Shown here one piece after another: positions 2,182 through 9,209 of a stretch of 10,134 nucleotides of DNA. Under the pieces are notes generated by a model, which was given only the letters and a program-made list of their open reading frames with translations, was not told where the DNA came from and did no database searches. The DNA lies in contig JAEYYJ010000408.1 of assembly GCA_023430845.1 (NCBI GenBank), positions 1-10,134 of the forward strand. The letters are read 5' to 3'. The stretch is from Pseudomonadota bacterium (GTDB lineage Bacteria; Pseudomonadota; Alphaproteobacteria; Rhizobiales; Hyphomicrobiaceae). Position numbers and translations under genes: made by a program. Each line of letters opens with the position of its first letter. Positions within the stretch are counted from its first letter, which is position 1.

Positions 2182-3255
2182 ATGTCACAGGCAATTACCT
2201 CTGTCGATGAGAACAAGCTCAACGCATTCATCGGTCAAATGCTCGCCGATCTTGGAGGCGCATCGAGCGTCGCGATGGTCCGCATGGGCGACGCGCTCGG
2301 ATTCTACAAGACACTCGCAGCGAAAGGTCCGATGACATCGTCTGAGCTTGCAGCGGCTGCAAAAGCAGATGAGCGATACGTGCGCGAGTGGCTGTCCAAT
2401 CAGGCCGCGTCGAACTACCTAACCTATGATGCAGCGTCGGCCCGCTTCTCGTTGCCGCCGGAGCAGGCCATGATATTCGTCAATGAGGAAAGCCCGGTCT
2501 ATATGATGGGCGCCTTCGACCTGATGGCCGCTCTGCAGGAGAACCAGTCGAAGGTGCAAGCCGCATTCAAATCCGGCGGCGGCGTCGCCTGGGGTGATCA
2601 GGCCGGCTGCATGTTCTGCGCTGTGGCGCGATTCTTCCGGCCGGGCTACCTCAACAATCTCGTGTCTTCGTGGCTTCCCGCGCTCGAAGGCGTGACGGCG
2701 AAGCTCGAGCGCGGTGCGAAAGTCGCGGACATCGGCTGCGGACATGGCTGGTCAACGGTGCTCATGGCCAAGGCATTCCCGAAGTCGCAGTTCATCGGCT
2801 TTGATTTTCATCCCGGCTCGATCGAGGACGCGCAGGCACACGCTCAATCGCACGGCGTATCCGCAAATGCGCGGTTCGAGGTCGGCTTGGCGAAGGATTA
2901 TCCGGGTAAGGATTTCGATCTGGTGACGTGCTTCGATTGCCTGCACGATATGGGCGATCCGGCGGGCGCCGCGACGCATATTCGCCAGTCGCTGAAGCCC
3001 GACGGGACGTGGATGATCGTTGAGCCGATGGCCGGCAACAGCCTCAATGAAAACCTCAATCCGGTCGGTCGTCTGTATTACGCAGCTTCGACGATGATCT
3101 GCGTTCCCACCTCGTTGTCGCAGGAGGTCGGGGCAGCGCTCGGCGCACAGGCAGGCGAAGCGAAATTGCGGGAAATTATCAAGGCCGGCGGGTTCTCGAG
3201 CGTCCGCCGGGCGACTGAAACGCCCTTCAATATGATCCTTGAAGCAAGGCCGTAG
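2182..3255 (+). CDS. Class I SAM-dependent methyltransferase with N-terminal winged helix
   Basis: A 357-residue protein. Residues about 13-95 resemble the winged-helix dimerisation domain of small-molecule O-/C-methyltransferases of the Rv2258c-like type (MGDALGFYKTLAAKGPMTSSELA, then DERYVREWL). The Rossmann domain starts at about 178 with SAM motif I, VADIGCGHG (181-189), an acidic strand-2 residue in GFDFH (Asp208) and a motif IV region FDLVTCFDCLHDMGDP. A later segment, KPDGTWMIVEP, is a typical post-motif strand. GAGGAG at 2168-2173, eight bases before the ATG, sets the start. The gene follows the hydrolase-glycosyltransferase fusion closely and probably shares its transcript. It would transfer a methyl group from SAM to an unknown substrate; the pathway cannot be named from this window. 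Confidence 0.88.
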   Translation: MSQAITSVDENKLNAFIGQMLADLGGASSVAMVRMGDALGFYKTLAAKGPMTSSELAAAAKADERYVREWLSNQAASNYLTYDAASARFSLPPEQAMIFVNEESPVYMMGAFDLMAALQENQSKVQAAFKSGGGVAWGDQAGCMFCAVARFFRPGYLNNLVSSWLPALEGVTAKLERGAKVADIGCGHGWSTVLMAKAFPKSQFIGFDFHPGSIEDAQAHAQSHGVSANARFEVGLAKDYPGKDFDLVTCFDCLHDMGDPAGAATHIRQSLKPDGTWMIVEPMAGNSLNENLNPVGRLYYAASTMICVPTSLSQEVGAALGAQAGEAKLREIIKAGGFSSVRRATETPFNMILEARP

Positions 3256-3348
3256 ATAGCGGCGGTGATTGCTGCCGTGGTCGGCATATCCCACGCGCCC
3301 AGCGTCGTGACCATTGATCAATTGGATTTTGCGATCGCAGCATTGGGC

Positions 3349-3372
3349 GTGCCACCTTGATGGGGGTGGCGC
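3349..3372 (+). promoter_or_regulatory. Hairpin in the leader before the formate dehydrogenase operon
   Basis: Arms GTGCCACC (3349-3356) and GGTGGCGC (3365-3372) pair over eight positions with one G-U wobble around an eight-base loop. No T-run follows, so it is not a typical intrinsic terminator. It lies between the methyltransferase stop and the formate dehydrogenase start. It could help end the upstream transcript or act in the 5' leader or operator of the fdn operon. The rest of the 174-base gap holds a weaker hairpin (3260-3277) and two 10-base palindromes (3313-3322 and 3330-3339). I see no promoter that I can place with confidence, and no sigma-54 type -24/-12 element. Confidence 0.4.
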
Positions 3373-3412
3373 ACTGCAGTCTTCTCCTTAGAAGGTAAAT
3401 AAGAATATTTGC

Positions 3413-3420
3413 AAGGAGGT
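3413..3420 (+). promoter_or_regulatory. Strong Shine-Dalgarno of the formate dehydrogenase alpha gene
   Basis: AAGGAGGT is a near-complete match to the 16S rRNA 3' end and ends nine bases before the ATG at 3430. It fixes that ATG as the start and implies high translation initiation. The upstream CTCCTT (3384-3389) can pair with AAGGAG (3413-3418), and alternatively CTTC/GAAG (3381-3384 with 3391-3394) can form a small competing hairpin. A switchable leader is therefore possible but unproven. Confidence 0.75.
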
Positions 3421-3429
3421 GGCTGACCC

Positions 3430-6400
3430 ATGAACATCGAAGTCTCTCGCCGAAGGTTCATGCAGCTGGCTGGCGCCGGCGCAGCAGGAACCGCCATCGG
3501 CGCGCTCGGCTTTGGAGAGGCGGAGGCGCAAGTCTCGGCTCTCGTCAAGCCCTTCAGGCTTGTTCAGACCAAGGAAGCGCGTACGACGTGCCCTTATTGC
3601 GCCGTGAGCTGCGGAATGCTGGCTTACGCGGCACCGAGCAAGGCCAACAAGGGCAAGCTCGAGGTCGTCCACATCGAGGGCGATGCCGACCATCCTGTCA
3701 ACCGCGGAACGCTGTGCCCGAAGGGTGCTGCCGCGATTGATTACATCCATTCCGCGACGCGCGTGAAAACGCCGATGTATCGGAAGCCCGGCACGGCGAA
3801 GTTCGAGCCCGTGACCTGGGATTTCGCGATGGAGCGGATCGCGAAACTCATGAAGGAAGATCGCGACGCGAACTTCGTCGAGAAGAACGCGGCGGGCGTC
3901 ACGGTCAACCGCTGGACGACGACGGGTTTCCTCTCCGGCAGCTCGGTCACGAACGAGACCGGCTGGGCGACTTACAAGGTCGCGCGTGGTCTCGGTCTTC
4001 TCCAGATTGAAAATCAGGCGAGGATCTGACACGGACCGACGGTGTCCAGTCTGGGCCCGACATTCGGTCGCGGTGCGATGACCAACAGTTGGACGGATAT
4101 CCGCAACACGGATCTCGTCCTCGTTATGGGCGGCAATGCCGCCGAAGCACATCCTTGCGGATTCAAGTGGGTCACCGAGGCGAAAGCCGAGCGTGGCGCC
4201 AAGCTCATGGTGGTCGATCCGCGGTTTACGCGATCGGCGGCTGTTGCCGATCACTATGCGCCGCTCCGTCCAGGATCCGACGTTGCGTTCCTGTCAGGTA
4301 TCGTCAATTACCTGCTCAGCAACGACAAGATCCACAAGGAGTACGTCCGCCACTACACGAACGCGGCCTATCTGGTGAAGGAAGGCTACGCCTTCGACGA
4401 AGGCTTCTTCTCCGGGTACGACGAGTCGAAGGCGACGTACGATCGCAGCTCGTGGGAATACGAGATCGGTGCGGACGGCTATGCCGTGCGCGATATGACA
4501 CTCGAGCACCCACGTTCTGTGTTCCAGCTCATGAAGAAGCATTTCGCGGTCTATACGCCCGAGATGGTCAATCGCGTGAGCGGGACGCCGCAGGACAAGT
4601 TCCTGAAGGTCGCTGAGTGGATCGCCTCGACTGCCAATGGCGAGCGGGCGATGACGATCATGTACGCGCTCGGATGGACGCAGCACTCGCACGGTGCGCA
4701 GAACATCCGTACCGCAGCCATGATCCAGCTTCTGTGCGGCAACATCGGCGTTCCTGGTGGTGGCGTGAACGCACTTCGCGGGCACTCCAACGTCCAGGGC
4801 ATCACTGATGTCGGCACGCTCACGGCAGCCATTCCCGGCTACCTTGCGTTGCCGACCGAGCAGGAGCCGACGCTCGAATCGCACTTGAGCAAGCGGACGT
4901 TCAAGCCGCTCCAGGCCAACCAGACGAGCTACTGGCAGAACTACCGGAAGTTCTATGTGAGCTTCCTGAAGTCGTACTTCGGCGCCAAGGCAACGCCGGA
5001 GAACAACTTCGGCTACGACTGGCTGCCGAAGCTCGACGTGGCCTACGACTGCCTGCGGATGTTCGATCTGATCAACCAGGGCAAGACGAACGGACTGATC
5101 TGCCAGGGCTTCAACCCGCTCATGGCCATCGCGGACTCGAACAAGAGCGCCGCTGGTCTGGCGAAGCTGAAATTCCTCGTCAGCATCGATCCGATCGAGA
5201 CCGACACGGCGCGGTTCTGGGAGAATCACGGCGAGTTCAACAACGTCGATCCCGCCAAGATTCAAACGGAAGTGTTCATGCTGCCCGTCACCTCGTTCGC
5301 CGAGGAAGCGGGAAGCCTGACCAACTCGAGCCGCTGCATCTCGTGGAAATGGCAGGCGGCGGATCCCTATCATGACTCACGCACCGACGTGGTCATCCTG
5401 GCGGATCTGTTCAATCGCATTCGCAAGCTCTACGAGACGCAGGGTGGCAAGGGAGCAGAGCCGCTGCTCGCCGTCGACTGGTCGTACAAGAATCCGGCAG
5501 AGCCGAGCGCCGACGAGCTTTTGAAGGAGCTCAATGGCAAGGCACTGGTGGATTTGAAGGACGCCAGCGGCAAGGTCACGCGTCAAGCCGGGCAGCAGCT
5601 CGCGAGCTTCGGCGAGATGCGCGACGACGGCTCGACCGACGGCGCCATGTGGATCTACACCGGCGTTTATGGCCCTGCGGGTAATCTCTCGCAGCGTCGT
5701 GACAACGCTGATCCATCGGGCCTCGGCGTCTACGGTAATTGGGGCTTCTCATGGCCCGCCAATCGCCGCATCCAGTACAATCGCGCCTCGGCCGATCCGG
5801 AAGGTAAGCCGTGGAGTGAGCGTAAGAAGTACATGTTCTGGAACGGCGAGCGCTGGACTGGACCGGATGTGCCGGACTACGTGCCGACCATCCCGCCGTC
5901 TCAGGCCACTGGCCCCTTCATCATGAACCCCGAAGGCGTCTCCCGCCTCTGGGTGCGCGGGCTGATGGCGGACGGGCCGTTCCCGGTCCACTACGAGCCA
6001 TTCGAGTCGCCGGTGACGAACCCGGTCTTCCCGAAGCTGAAGGGCAATCCGGCTGCGCGCGTGTTCGAGCGTGACCGGCCGTCATTCGGCACATCGAAGG
6101 AGTTCCCGATCGTCGCCACCACCTATCGCCTCGTCGAGCATTTCCATTACTGGACGAAGGGCGTGCACATGAATGCTGTCGTGCAGCCCGAGTTCTTCGT
6201 GGAGATGTCCGAGCAGCTTGCGGCCGAGAAAGGCATCAAGCATGGCGGCTGGGTGCGTGTGTGGTCCAAGCGTGGCTCGGTCAAGGGCAAGGCTGTCGTG
6301 ACGAAGCGGCTGAAGCCTCTGACGGTCGACGGGAAGACCGTGCATTACGTCGGACTGCCACTCAACTTCGGCTTCATCGGTGTGGCCCGCAAGGCCAATC

Positions 6401-6504
6401 CGATCAACGGGCTGACGCCGCCGGTCGGTGACGCCAACTCGCAGACGCCGGAGTACAAGGCATTTCTCGTCAACGTCGAGCCCATCGTCGGGCCGGTGGC
6501 ATAA
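3430..6504 (+). CDS. fdnG: Formate dehydrogenase-N type catalytic (alpha) subunit, selenoprotein; UGA at 4027-4029 read as Sec200
   Basis: The molybdopterin-containing, periplasm-facing subunit that oxidises formate to CO2. It is read as one 1024-residue protein with in-frame TGA as selenocysteine 200. The size is close to that of E. coli FdnG (about 1015 residues). It begins with a Tat signal, SRRRFM at 6-11 followed by a small-residue hydrophobic stretch and likely cleavage after AEA (31-33). A [4Fe-4S] site follows, with Cys54, Cys57, Cys61 and Cys96, and CPKG giving the conserved Lys98. The active site reads NQARI-Sec-HGPT, matching the family context of Sec followed by His. After the TGA the protein continues without a break into VMGGNAAEAHP, VVDPRFTR, ALGWTQH, GVNALRGHSN and the C-terminal GDANSQTPEYKAFLVN, all characteristic of FDH-N/O. 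The AAGGAGGT site sets the start. The beta subunit gene follows after 15 bases. It requires SelA/B/C/D and a bis-MGD cofactor, none encoded here. Confidence 0.95.
4027..4068 (+). promoter_or_regulatory. Bacterial SECIS element with selenocysteine UGA codon
   Basis: The TGA (4027-4029) is followed at the expected distance by a hairpin with bacterial SECIS features. The apical stem pairs 4040-4042 (CGG) with 4057-4059 (CCG), leaves U4043 bulged, then pairs 4044-4047 (GUCC) with 4053-4056 (GGGC, one G-U). The loop AGUCU (4048-4052) contains the GU expected to contact SelB. A lower stem ACCGA (4035-4039) pairs with UCGGU (4064-4068) across an asymmetric internal loop. The bulged U and the G in the loop are the known determinants of SelB recognition. 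The pairing was done by hand from the sequence. The same bases also encode the conserved HGPT...GPTFGRG stretch. Confidence 0.9.
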
Positions 6505-6519
6505 GGGGAGAGCAACAAC

Positions 6520-7458
6520 ATGTTTCCAGCAATCCCCAATCCCACCACGGAGAAGTCCTCAGCCAAGTTCGGCGAGAAGGACATGATCCGCCGCTCGGCC
6601 TCCACGATCACGCCGCCCGCAAAGCGGCAGACCGAGGTGGCCAAGCTGATCGACGTGTCGAAGTGCATCGGCTGCAAGGCATGCCAGACGGCTTGCCTCG
6701 AGTGGAACCAGCTCACGGAAGAGGTCGGCGTGAATGTCGGTGTCTACGACAATCCGCACGACCTCACGCCCAACAGCTGGACGCTGATGCGCTATACCGA
6801 ATACGAGAATCCGGAGAGCGGCAATCTCGAGTGGCTGATCCGCAAGGACGGCTGCATGCATTGCGAGGATCCGGGCTGTCTCAAAGCGTGCCCCTCACCG
6901 GGTGCGATCGTGCAGTACTCCAACGGTATCGTCGATTTTATCAAGGAGAACTGCATCGGCTGCGGGTATTGCGTGAAGGGCTGTCCCTTCAACATTCCGC
7001 GCATCTCGAATGCCGATCACAAAGCCTACAAGTGCACGCTCTGCTCGGATCGTGTGGCTGTCGGCCAGGGGCCTGCTTGCCAGAAGGCTTGCCCGACCCA
7101 GGCGATCGTGTTCGGCACGAAGGACGAGATGAAGACCTGGGCGGCAAAGCGCATCGCTGACTTGAAGTCTCGCGGCTTCGACAAAGCGGGGCTCTATGAT
7201 CCGCCAGGTGTGCAGGGCACGCACGTCATGTACGTGCTCCATCACGCCGACAAGCCGCAGCTCTATGCCGGTCTTGCCGAGAACCCGCGGATCAGTCCTC
7301 TCGTCGAGGCCTGGAAGGGTGTCGGAAAGTACGCTGGTTTGGCGTTGATCGGCCTGACGGCTGCTGCTGGCGTGATCCACCACATCCTGCAAGGCCCCAA
7401 TCGCGTCTCCAAGGAAGACGAGGAGAATGCCGAGAAGCTGGCGGGAGGTAAGTCGTGA
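6520..7458 (+). CDS. fdnH: Formate dehydrogenase iron-sulfur (beta) subunit
   Basis: A 312-residue electron-transfer subunit that carries electrons from the catalytic subunit to cytochrome b. Sixteen cysteines form four ferredoxin-type [4Fe-4S] motifs: Cys49/52/55/59 ([11 protein letters not shown]), Cys112/115/120/124, Cys145/148/151/155 ([11 protein letters not shown]) and Cys172/175/187/191. A single hydrophobic segment near 268-290 followed by a charged tail fits the C-terminal membrane anchor of FdnH/FdxH, with the cluster domain on the periplasmic side. There is no signal peptide of its own, and by analogy it is exported with the Tat-bearing alpha subunit. GGGGAG at 6505-6510, directly after the alpha stop, supports the ATG at 6520. 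The ATG at 6583 (Met22), just before the conserved RRSAS-ITPP segment, is a possible shorter start. The gene overlaps the next one by four bases, indicating translational coupling. Confidence 0.95.
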
Positions 7459-8156
7459 GCATACATGATCAGGACAGCGGGGCGCACACGCGTGTGCCCC
7501 GCTACTCGGGAAGTGCTCGCATCAACCATTGGATCGTCGCGATCAGCTTCGTTCTCTTGCTGTTGAGCGGGCTTTCGCTCTTCCATCCGAGCCTCTTCTG
7601 GCTGAGCGGGCTCTTCGGTGGCGGGGCCACGGTGCGCTGGCTCCATCCTTGGATCGGTGTTGTGCTCGTCGTCGGCTTCATCGGGCTTTTTATCCGCTTC
7701 TTCGCGCAGAATTTGCCCGAGCGCACGGACTGGGTGTGGCTCGCGCGCATCCGCCATGTGTTGAGCGGCAACGATGAGTATCTACCGGAAGTCGGCAAGT
7801 ACAATGCCGGGCAGAAGTTCGTCTTCTGGTCGCAGTCCGTGCTCGTGGCGGTGATGTTCGTGACGGGCGTCGGGCTATGGGAGCCGGGGCTTGCGTACTT
7901 CGAGGGCCTTTTCGGGTTCAAGGCGACGATCGACCAGCTTCGCGCGGCAGCTCTCATCCATGCCTCCGCCGCGGTGCTCACGATCACGATCTGGATCGTC
8001 CATGTCTACGCGGCGATTTGGGTGCGCGGTACGTTCAGCGCCATGACGCGCGGTTTCGTCACCGGCGGTTGGGGCTGGCGGCATCACCGCAAGTGGCTGC
8101 GCAAGGAAGTCGACGAAGGCAAGGTCGAGCGGCAGCACGTGACACCTGCCGAATAG
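7455..8156 (+). CDS. fdnI: Formate dehydrogenase cytochrome b556 (gamma) subunit
   Basis: A 233-residue integral membrane di-heme cytochrome b that passes electrons from the iron-sulfur subunit to the quinone pool. There are four hydrophobic helices, near 25-45, 62-83, 124-143 and 166-190. Candidate heme ligands are His25 (RINHW), His64 (WLHPW), His169 (LIHAS) and His183 (IVHVY). The 14-residue spacing of the last two is that of the FdnI family. The basic tail [13 protein letters not shown] is also typical of the family. The start is a GTG that overlaps the beta stop (GTGA, 7455-7458), which is why a start further downstream is less likely. A strong terminator begins ten bases after the stop, so this is the last gene of the structural operon. 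Confidence 0.93.
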
Positions 8157-8165
8157 GCAATCTAA

Positions 8166-8207
8166 GGCTCTTTCGGCATTCGAGATTTGCCGGAAGAGCC
8201 GCTTTTT
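8166..8207 (+). terminator. Rho-independent terminator after the formate dehydrogenase structural genes
   Basis: Arms GGCTCTTTCGGCA (8166-8178) and TGCCGGAAGAGCC (8188-8200) pair over 13 positions with a single G-U wobble around a nine-base loop. They are followed within two bases by TTTTT (8203-8207). This is a textbook intrinsic terminator on the + strand. It separates the three structural genes from fdhE, so fdhE depends either on read-through or on its own promoter in the short stretch that follows. Confidence 0.88.
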
Positions 8208-8221
8208 GCCGCTTGATATTT

Positions 8222-8239
8222 CACGCCGCGCATGGCGTG
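8222..8239. repeat. Short inverted repeat upstream of fdhE
   Basis: CACGCC (8222-8227) and GGCGTG (8234-8239) form a perfect six-base inverted repeat around GCGCAT. It lies between the terminator and the fdhE start and has no T-run. It could be an operator or a leader hairpin for fdhE, or chance in GC-rich DNA. Confidence 0.35.
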
Positions 8240-8288
8240 ACTGAGTGCGCTCTACATGAGCGCCCGATAATCGATGACAGAGGTGACA

Positions 8289-9209
8289 ATGCCCGGCGGA
8301 CGCCGCATCGTCGGCGACATGAGCAATATCGGAGAGCAGGCGAAACCACCCTTCGCGGTGCTCCCCGATCCATCCGCGCTGTTCCTGAGCCGCGCCGAGC
8401 GCCTCGCGGAGCTGGCGCGCTCCGGTCACAAGCTCAGCCCCTATCTCGAGTTTCTCGCAAGACTCGCATCTGCGCAGCATGATATCGCGGCCACGCTGCC
8501 GCCCGTATCACTGCCGTCCGCGGATCTTATTGCGCGGGCCCAGCAGAACGGCATGCCACCGATCGCACGTGGAACGCTCGAGCCGGATGGTGCCATGATG
8601 GCGGCCGTCGAAGGACTTGCTGTCCGGCTGCGCGCGATGACCTTGCCCCCTGCGACGGCGGCGGCTGTCGATGCGCTCATCGAGGCTCTTCCATCGCGAG
8701 GGCGCGAGCTCGTGACGGCTGCGCTGAAGGAACCGGCATCCACCGACGACATGGCGCAGCGCGTTCTGATTCTGGCAGGGCTTCAGGTGCATTTCACGCG
8801 ACTGGCGGCGATGCTCGATGCCGAGGCGTTGACACCTGTCGCCCATGCGGCGTGTCCCTCGTGCGGCAGTGCGCCCGTGGCAAGCAGCGTAGTCGGTTGG
8901 CCGAAAGCGTACAACACGCGCTACTGCACGTGCAGTCTCTGCGGGACCATGTGGAACGTGATCCGCGTCATGTGCGTGCTGTGTGGGGCGACGGATGGCG
9001 TGAGCTTCCGCGGCATCGAGGGGCAGCCCGACACGGTCAAGGCGGAGACGTGCGAGACATGCCGCGGCTACGTGAAGATCGTCTACCAGGTCAATGATGT
9101 CGCGCTCGAACCTCTCAGCGACGACTTGGCGAGCGTCGGCCTCGACATGCTGCTCGCCGAGGAAGGCTGGAAGCGTGGCAGCCAGAATCCCTTCCTGCTG
9201 GGATACTGA
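8289..9209 (+). CDS. fdhE: Formate dehydrogenase accessory protein FdhE
   Basis: A cytoplasmic assembly factor for respiratory formate dehydrogenases. In E. coli FdhE is a rubredoxin-like protein that binds the catalytic subunit before Tat export. From the ATG at 8289 it is 306 residues, close to the roughly 309 of E. coli FdhE. The C-terminal half carries the family's paired cysteines: Cys189/192 (CPSCGS), Cys213/215/218 (CTCSLCGTMW), Cys229/232 (CVLCGA) and Cys255/258 (CETCRGY). It ends in a short segment, NPFLLGY. The 8289 start has AGAGGTGA at 8279-8286. The in-frame ATG at 8274 would add five residues but has no visible ribosome site, and an ATG at 8319 is a third possibility. It lies downstream of the structural genes but behind a strong terminator, so it is probably expressed at a lower level or separately. 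Its stop is 11 bases from the convergent upp stop. Confidence 0.92.
   Translation: MPGGRRIVGDMSNIGEQAKPPFAVLPDPSALFLSRAERLAELARSGHKLSPYLEFLARLASAQHDIAATLPPVSLPSADLIARAQQNGMPPIARGTLEPDGAMMAAVEGLAVRLRAMTLPPATAAAVDALIEALPSRGRELVTAALKEPASTDDMAQRVLILAGLQVHFTRLAAMLDAEALTPVAHAACPSCGSAPVASSVVGWPKAYNTRYCTCSLCGTMWNVIRVMCVLCGATDGVSFRGIEGQPDTVKAETCETCRGYVKIVYQVNDVALEPLSDDLASVGLDMLLAEEGWKRGSQNPFLLGY

Follow-up and report, generated by a model that had tools for sequence, protein, structure and literature searches.

An in-frame TGA codon followed by a SECIS element in fdoG, the gene for a respiratory formate dehydrogenase catalytic subunit

Results

The window analysed here is a stretch of DNA of 10,134 nucleotides. 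With a probability of about 0.97, an in-frame TGA in it and the SECIS hairpin at this codon are the selenocysteine (Sec) signal of a single gene, fdoG, which encodes the catalytic subunit of a respiratory formate dehydrogenase bound to the membrane (fdoGHI, together with the maturation factor fdhE). A sequence-only reading had proposed one selenoprotein gene in place of two open reading frames. This proposal was borne out by the SECIS match, the conservation of the TGA, covariation, codon constraint and dN/dS, and by the co-occurrence of selA and selB in relatives; the reading frame, the protein family and the Sec machinery of related genomes agreed with it. The features are listed in Table 1.

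Table 1. Features of the fdoG region and their positions in the window
Feature	Position	Strand	Evidence or remark
Shine-Dalgarno-like AAGGAGG 5' of fdoG	3413..3419	+	Sequence read by eye
fdoG, formate dehydrogenase-N/O alpha subunit, 1024 aa	3430..6504	+	Sec at residue 200; TIGR01553
SECIS element, Rfam SECIS_3 (RF01989)	4024..4082	+	80.1 bits, gathering threshold 63, E 3.9e-18
In-frame TGA (UGA) codon, selenocysteine U200, then His201	4027..4029	+	Same column in relatives
SECIS apical stem-loop	4041..4058	+	Stem 4041-4048 with 4052-4058, bulged U4043, loop GUC 4049-4051
fdoH, beta subunit, iron-sulfur, Form-deh_trans anchor	6520..7458	+	TIGR01582, 459.5 bits, cut-off 334.7
fdoI, gamma subunit, cytochrome b	7455..8156	+	TIGR01583, 168.8 bits, cut-off 115.85
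fdhE, formate dehydrogenase accessory protein	8274..9209	+	TIGR01562, 235.8 bits, cut-off 187.65; 2fiy, E 3.6e-35

Reading Frame and Protein Family

The frame of fdoG started with ATG 3430 and closed with a TAA stop at 6502-6504, and the TGA was its sole interruption. Mechanical ORF calling gave two frames, 3430-4029 (199 aa) and 4042-6504 (820 aa, from a GTG start), exactly the split that had been described before. When the TGA was read as U, a protein of 1024 aa was obtained, in which U200 is followed by HGPT. The sequence AAGGAGG was found by eye upstream of ATG 3430, and no Shine-Dalgarno-like sequence was seen within the 25 bases preceding GTG 4042, in line with the earlier view that this GTG is a false start.

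FdoG, scored with C substituted for U, matched TIGR01553 over residues 5-1017 with 1371.2 bits against a curated cut-off of 814.2; as the sequence-only reading had held, the family sequence does continue past the TGA. The protein is a near full-length homologue of E. coli FdnG/FdoG. Its residues 4-1017 aligned to FdnG (1kqf) with 1341 bits, and U200-H201 fell on the X-His of that structure, which places the TGA at the Sec-His active-site position, again as claimed. In E. coli the residue X is Sec. The domains of FdoG comprise an Fe4S4 domain at residues 48-108 and molybdopterin domains, and SRRRF at residues 6-10 is a Tat-like motif. Set beside the formate dehydrogenase family as described in a 2026 review (PMC13188914), the motif UHGP makes the window protein a standard member of that family.

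The SECIS Element

SECIS_3 was the top match in the window among 4227 Rfam families, with all 59 model positions aligned, and its covariance-model score was far above chance (Table 1). The Rfam alignment gave a hairpin at 4030-4072 with U4043 unpaired and GUC in the loop, so the bulged U and the GU-containing loop named before were both recovered. The span of 4027-4068 given for the signal was right in location but slightly shorter than the element. A bulged U and an apical loop are likewise part of the SECIS_3 model; at one pair the window has U-G instead of the model's G-C, as do 15 of the 37 distinct sequences compared below. The apical stem-loop begins 11 bases 3' of the UGA. Thermodynamic folding led to a similar hairpin (-19.7 kcal/mol, z -1.89), and 9 of 200 shuffled sequences were equally low or lower, so that folding energy alone is modest evidence for a SECIS. 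An ilvB-OMG match at 4213-4238 (13.3 bits, E 3.5) was rejected as chance.

Conservation, Covariation, and Codon Constraint

A scan of named genomes yielded 591 confirmed loci. The best 80 of them were chosen by similarity to FdoG, which makes the sample a biased one, and all 80 carried TGA at the Sec column. Pairing was counted in 40 of the resulting 81 sequences (the window and 39 loci, thinned by hand), 37 of which were distinct; their alignment was gap-free and had been built without the structure. Across the 37 distinct sequences, the Rfam structure was paired in 90.2% of cells compared with 85.1% in shuffles, and compensatory changes were seen in 28 cells changed on both sides compared with 10.8. 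None of 500 shuffles, which ignore relatedness, reached the observed value for pairing or for both-side changes. When the structure was slid by 1 to 3 columns, pairing fell to 27-50%. The apical helix was paired in 97.7% of cells and the lower helix in 84.4%; in the latter, columns 8-48, 12-44, and 15-42 were unpaired in 21, 12, and 13 of the 37 distinct sequences, respectively.

Taken as a block, codons 201-217 gave no signal of synonymous constraint in 76 thinned sequences (conservation 0.62, with 0.61 as the mean; rank 466 of 1007), and the codons were inspected one by one after this result. The codon of Ser207 (4048-4050) consists of the last stem base and the first two loop bases. It was AGT in 81 of 81 sequences (the window and the best 80 of 591 loci), compared with 74 AGT among the remaining 4156 serine codons of these genes. 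In the same 81 sequences His201 was always CAC, and Thr204 was ACG in 80, the remaining one having Ser. These results indicated that the synonymous constraint is local, with only single bulge and loop codons standing out.

Sec Machinery in Related Genomes

For 14 of the 80 loci, the sel genes of the corresponding genomes were counted. SECIS_3 was present in all 14, selA and selB were over their cut-offs in 12 each, and selD was found in 13. SelB matches under the cut-off, presumably other elongation factors, were left out of the counts. At the default threshold all 14 control genomes gave a tRNA-Sec match, 5 of them over the cut-off, and therefore only matches of at least 64 bits were counted as selC; these occurred in 11 of the 14 locus genomes, and matches over the family cut-off at any strength in 13. 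Profile search of the genomes found neither selB over the cut-off nor a strong tRNA-Sec in G006 and G010, and selA gave no match in G006 and a fragment below the cut-off in G010. G001 had a partial selB (profile positions 1-302) and yielded no strong tRNA-Sec, and G007 no selD match. The SelD match of G002 (C11:37667-38584) lay inside an open frame of 788 residues, and a second SelD-like match of G008 in one of 796 residues, both possibly fusions; the other SelD matches lay in frames of 326-413 residues.

A wider survey covered 103 genomes of the family to which G011 belongs, with the gene called at E <= 1e-150. The gene was present in 25 genomes at 34 places; residue 200 is covered at 31 of these and not at 3, and one TGA was seen at each of the 31. 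A selA match was found in 29 of the 103 genomes (28 over the cut-off), and selB occurred in exactly these genomes. Among genomes with the gene, 23 of 25 had selA, compared with 6 of 78 without it (Fisher p 2e-15, kinship ignored). The two remaining gene-bearing genomes (G018 and G085) gave no selA or selB match, and tRNA-Sec and selD were found in both, which would fit incomplete assemblies. Six genomes (G022, G024, G040, G041, G042, and G112) had selA and selB with no FdoG match at E <= 1e-150. Copies per genome are lower bounds, taken from the best 7 candidates in the family survey, the best 2 in the class sample described below (which shows 2 of the 3 copies of G011), and the best 150 for tRNA-Sec and SECIS_3.

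The nearest syntenic genome, G039, has selA, selB, selC (tRNA-Sec), and selD. In its neighbourhood the identities to the window were 92% (over a part) for a hydrolase-glycosyltransferase fusion gene and 90% for a methyltransferase; an insert of about 4.7 kb follows, and then FdoG (97%), FdoH (98%), FdoI (97%), FdhE (90%), and Upp (66%). The insert (L147:2325-7011, absent from the window) holds regulator-like and sugar ABC transporter-like frames, the latter named by eye as ATPase, permease, and binding protein. Judged by such close relatives, the source of the window is a probable Sec-decoding organism and would carry selA, selB, selC, and selD.

It is very improbable that the codon and the SECIS are intact in a source without working Sec machinery, for instance one that acquired the operon horizontally, with the truncated product as the only one made. 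This view could draw on a profile search in which none of the seven annotated genes of the window was a sel gene, on the position of the matching copy away from selA and selB in G011 and G039, and on the differing histories of FdoG and FdoI described below. However, G039, with the same neighbourhood bar one insert and the closest FdoG, has the complete set of sel genes, and dN/dS against its copy was 0.05-0.06.

Selective Pressure 5' and 3' of the TGA

With L147 (of G039), the nearest relative, as reference, dN/dS was 0.050 before the TGA and 0.061 after it. The corresponding values were 0.040-0.048 and 0.051-0.092 against L148, L002, and L001, and 0.203 and 0.155 against the more distant L003. 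Protein-level selection acts on the region 3' of the TGA.

These values bear on the possibility that translation truly ends at the TGA, with fdoG being either a pseudogene or a pair of split proteins of 199 and 820 residues, the second starting at GTG 4042. Such a stop would match the mechanical ORF calls, and a damaged fdoG copy does exist in G038 (L150, G038:C320): it is without the UGA region, its two parts are out of frame with each other, and its SECIS_3 score is 28 bits. Natural loss and assembly error cannot be told apart for that copy. The similar purifying selection on both sides, the TGA kept at every one of the best 80 of 591 loci, the GTG without a Shine-Dalgarno-like sequence, and a SECIS kept with covariation all argue against a true stop, which we regard as even less probable than the loss of Sec machinery.

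A Cys-Containing Relative

In a sample of 385 genomes from the class, 15 gave a match at E <= 1e-250, of which 14 had TGA and 1 had Cys. The statement in the sequence-only reading that many alphaproteobacterial formate dehydrogenases use Cys thus did not hold for this subfamily at that threshold. Counted by places, 15 of 16 had one TGA. The exception, G370, has no TGA; its protein (50% identity) has Cys (TGC) at the Sec column and Ala (GCG) at the Ser207 column, its SECIS_3 score of 26 bits is under the threshold, and no selA match was found in the genome. selA was present in all 13 other class-sample genomes tested beside it, and in G011. On this single case, the family offers a clean contrast between UGA, SECIS, and selA together and TGC without them.

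TGA was the terminal stop in 3 of the 7 window genes checked (the hydrolase fusion, fdoH, and fdhE), which makes a general reassignment of TGA unlikely. A reading of the codon as another amino acid, such as Trp under an altered genetic code or Cys through misreading, would keep the frame open and would be in keeping with the Cys of G370, but it is the least probable of all in view of these terminal TGA codons, the family's Sec position with a SECIS directly 3' of it, and the sel genes of close relatives.

The Operon and Its Copies

FdoH, FdoI, and FdhE adjoin FdoG, all over their curated cut-offs, and upp follows the operon. The window gene is thus the fdoG of such an operon (fdoGHI-fdhE), and its source is probably a relative of Hyphomicrobium. 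Upstream lie a frame at 42-2150, in which an alpha/beta hydrolase is joined to a glycosyltransferase-like domain, and a methyltransferase at 2182-3255 with an Rv2258c-like winged-helix domain; this pair is kept in G039. In the window fdoG is succeeded by the genes of the beta and gamma subunits and by fdhE; the genes on either side, the methyltransferase (upstream) and upp (downstream), are not those found in E. coli.

In G001, G002, and G011, three SECIS_3 elements and three Sec-formate dehydrogenase alpha genes were found per genome, and one copy shares a contig with selA, within about 5 kb. The second fdoG copy of G039 (64% identity) adjoins selA, and tRNA-Sec (L149, 15299-15393) lies there wholly inside a selB frame of 691 residues (13341-15416). 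Each of these four genomes has two or three copies, and the one nearest to that of the window stands apart from selA. Among plasmid records, 1298 had a match, with a best identity of 62%, and 149 covered at least 80% of the query; these matches shed no light on where the window comes from.

Quick trees were built from the window and 32 to 36 loci chosen by hand, and the groups for the clade tests were named after the trees had been seen. The window-type FdoG clustered with a Xanthobacteraceae-type group with support 100. This group includes Afipia and Pseudorhodoplanes, and also a Paracoccus and a Caulobacteraceae-labelled MAG. The grouping of FdoG with the Hyphomicrobium-type sel-linked copy was rejected (p 1.4e-30). 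FdoI rejected the Xanthobacteraceae-type grouping (p 3e-6), and the window type sat with Hyphomicrobium-type copies with support 68, which is not firm. For FdhE the Xanthobacteraceae-type grouping was rejected (p 4e-4) and the Hyphomicrobium-type one was not (p 0.39), while FdoH was undecided (Hyphomicrobium-type support 94; Xanthobacteraceae-type not rejected, p 0.51). The DNA identity to L002 was 87% over 3317-8158 and 72% at fdhE.

Compared with L011, L147-L149, L151, and L152, the operon at 3317-9209 is probably a mosaic. At slightly less than even odds, Sec-formate dehydrogenases may have expanded to two or three copies in each genome of the Hyphomicrobium group and the window copy may be a chimera, with FdoG from a Xanthobacteraceae-type sel-linked operon and FdoI, perhaps also FdhE, of the host lineage.

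Discussion

By analogy with the E. coli enzyme family, SelB carrying Sec-tRNA-Sec would bind the apical stem-loop of the SECIS, and the ribosome would put selenocysteine at residue 200 in place of termination. The selenium would ligate the active-site Mo or W, and the folded enzyme would be exported via the Tat route. Formate would then be oxidised to CO2, with the electrons passing via FdoH and FdoI to quinone.

According to Zhang et al. (2006; PMC1794560), Sec-decoding Alphaproteobacteria, Betaproteobacteria, and Pseudomonadales share similar selA-selB-selC operons, fdhA neighbours these operons and is their only selenoprotein, and Sec-to-Cys changes occur mostly in formate dehydrogenase and selenophosphate synthetase. 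Mukai (2021; PMC8124441) describes tRNA-Sec nested in the selB frame in diverse Alphaproteobacteria, and the sel-linked copy of G039 resembles these species in this respect. As far as these two sources go, the alphaproteobacterial fdoGHI-sel cluster is of the same family and has the same order, fdoG-fdoH-fdoI-fdhE, as the window; the window operon differs in being followed by upp and not by selA, and is a non-linked copy. Our literature search found no paper joining selenoprotein, formate dehydrogenase, and Hyphomicrobiaceae.

The recoding itself is textbook, and the arrangement is genuine but well known. The analysis corrects a gene model, fdoG being split in two by mechanical ORF calling. 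Of modest extra value are the contrast between the UGA genes and the single TGC case, G370, and the multiple, apparently mosaic Sec-formate dehydrogenase operons in the Hyphomicrobium group. If the window copy is indeed a chimera, a host that already decoded Sec would have received a Sec-dependent catalytic subunit by a swap within an operon it already had.
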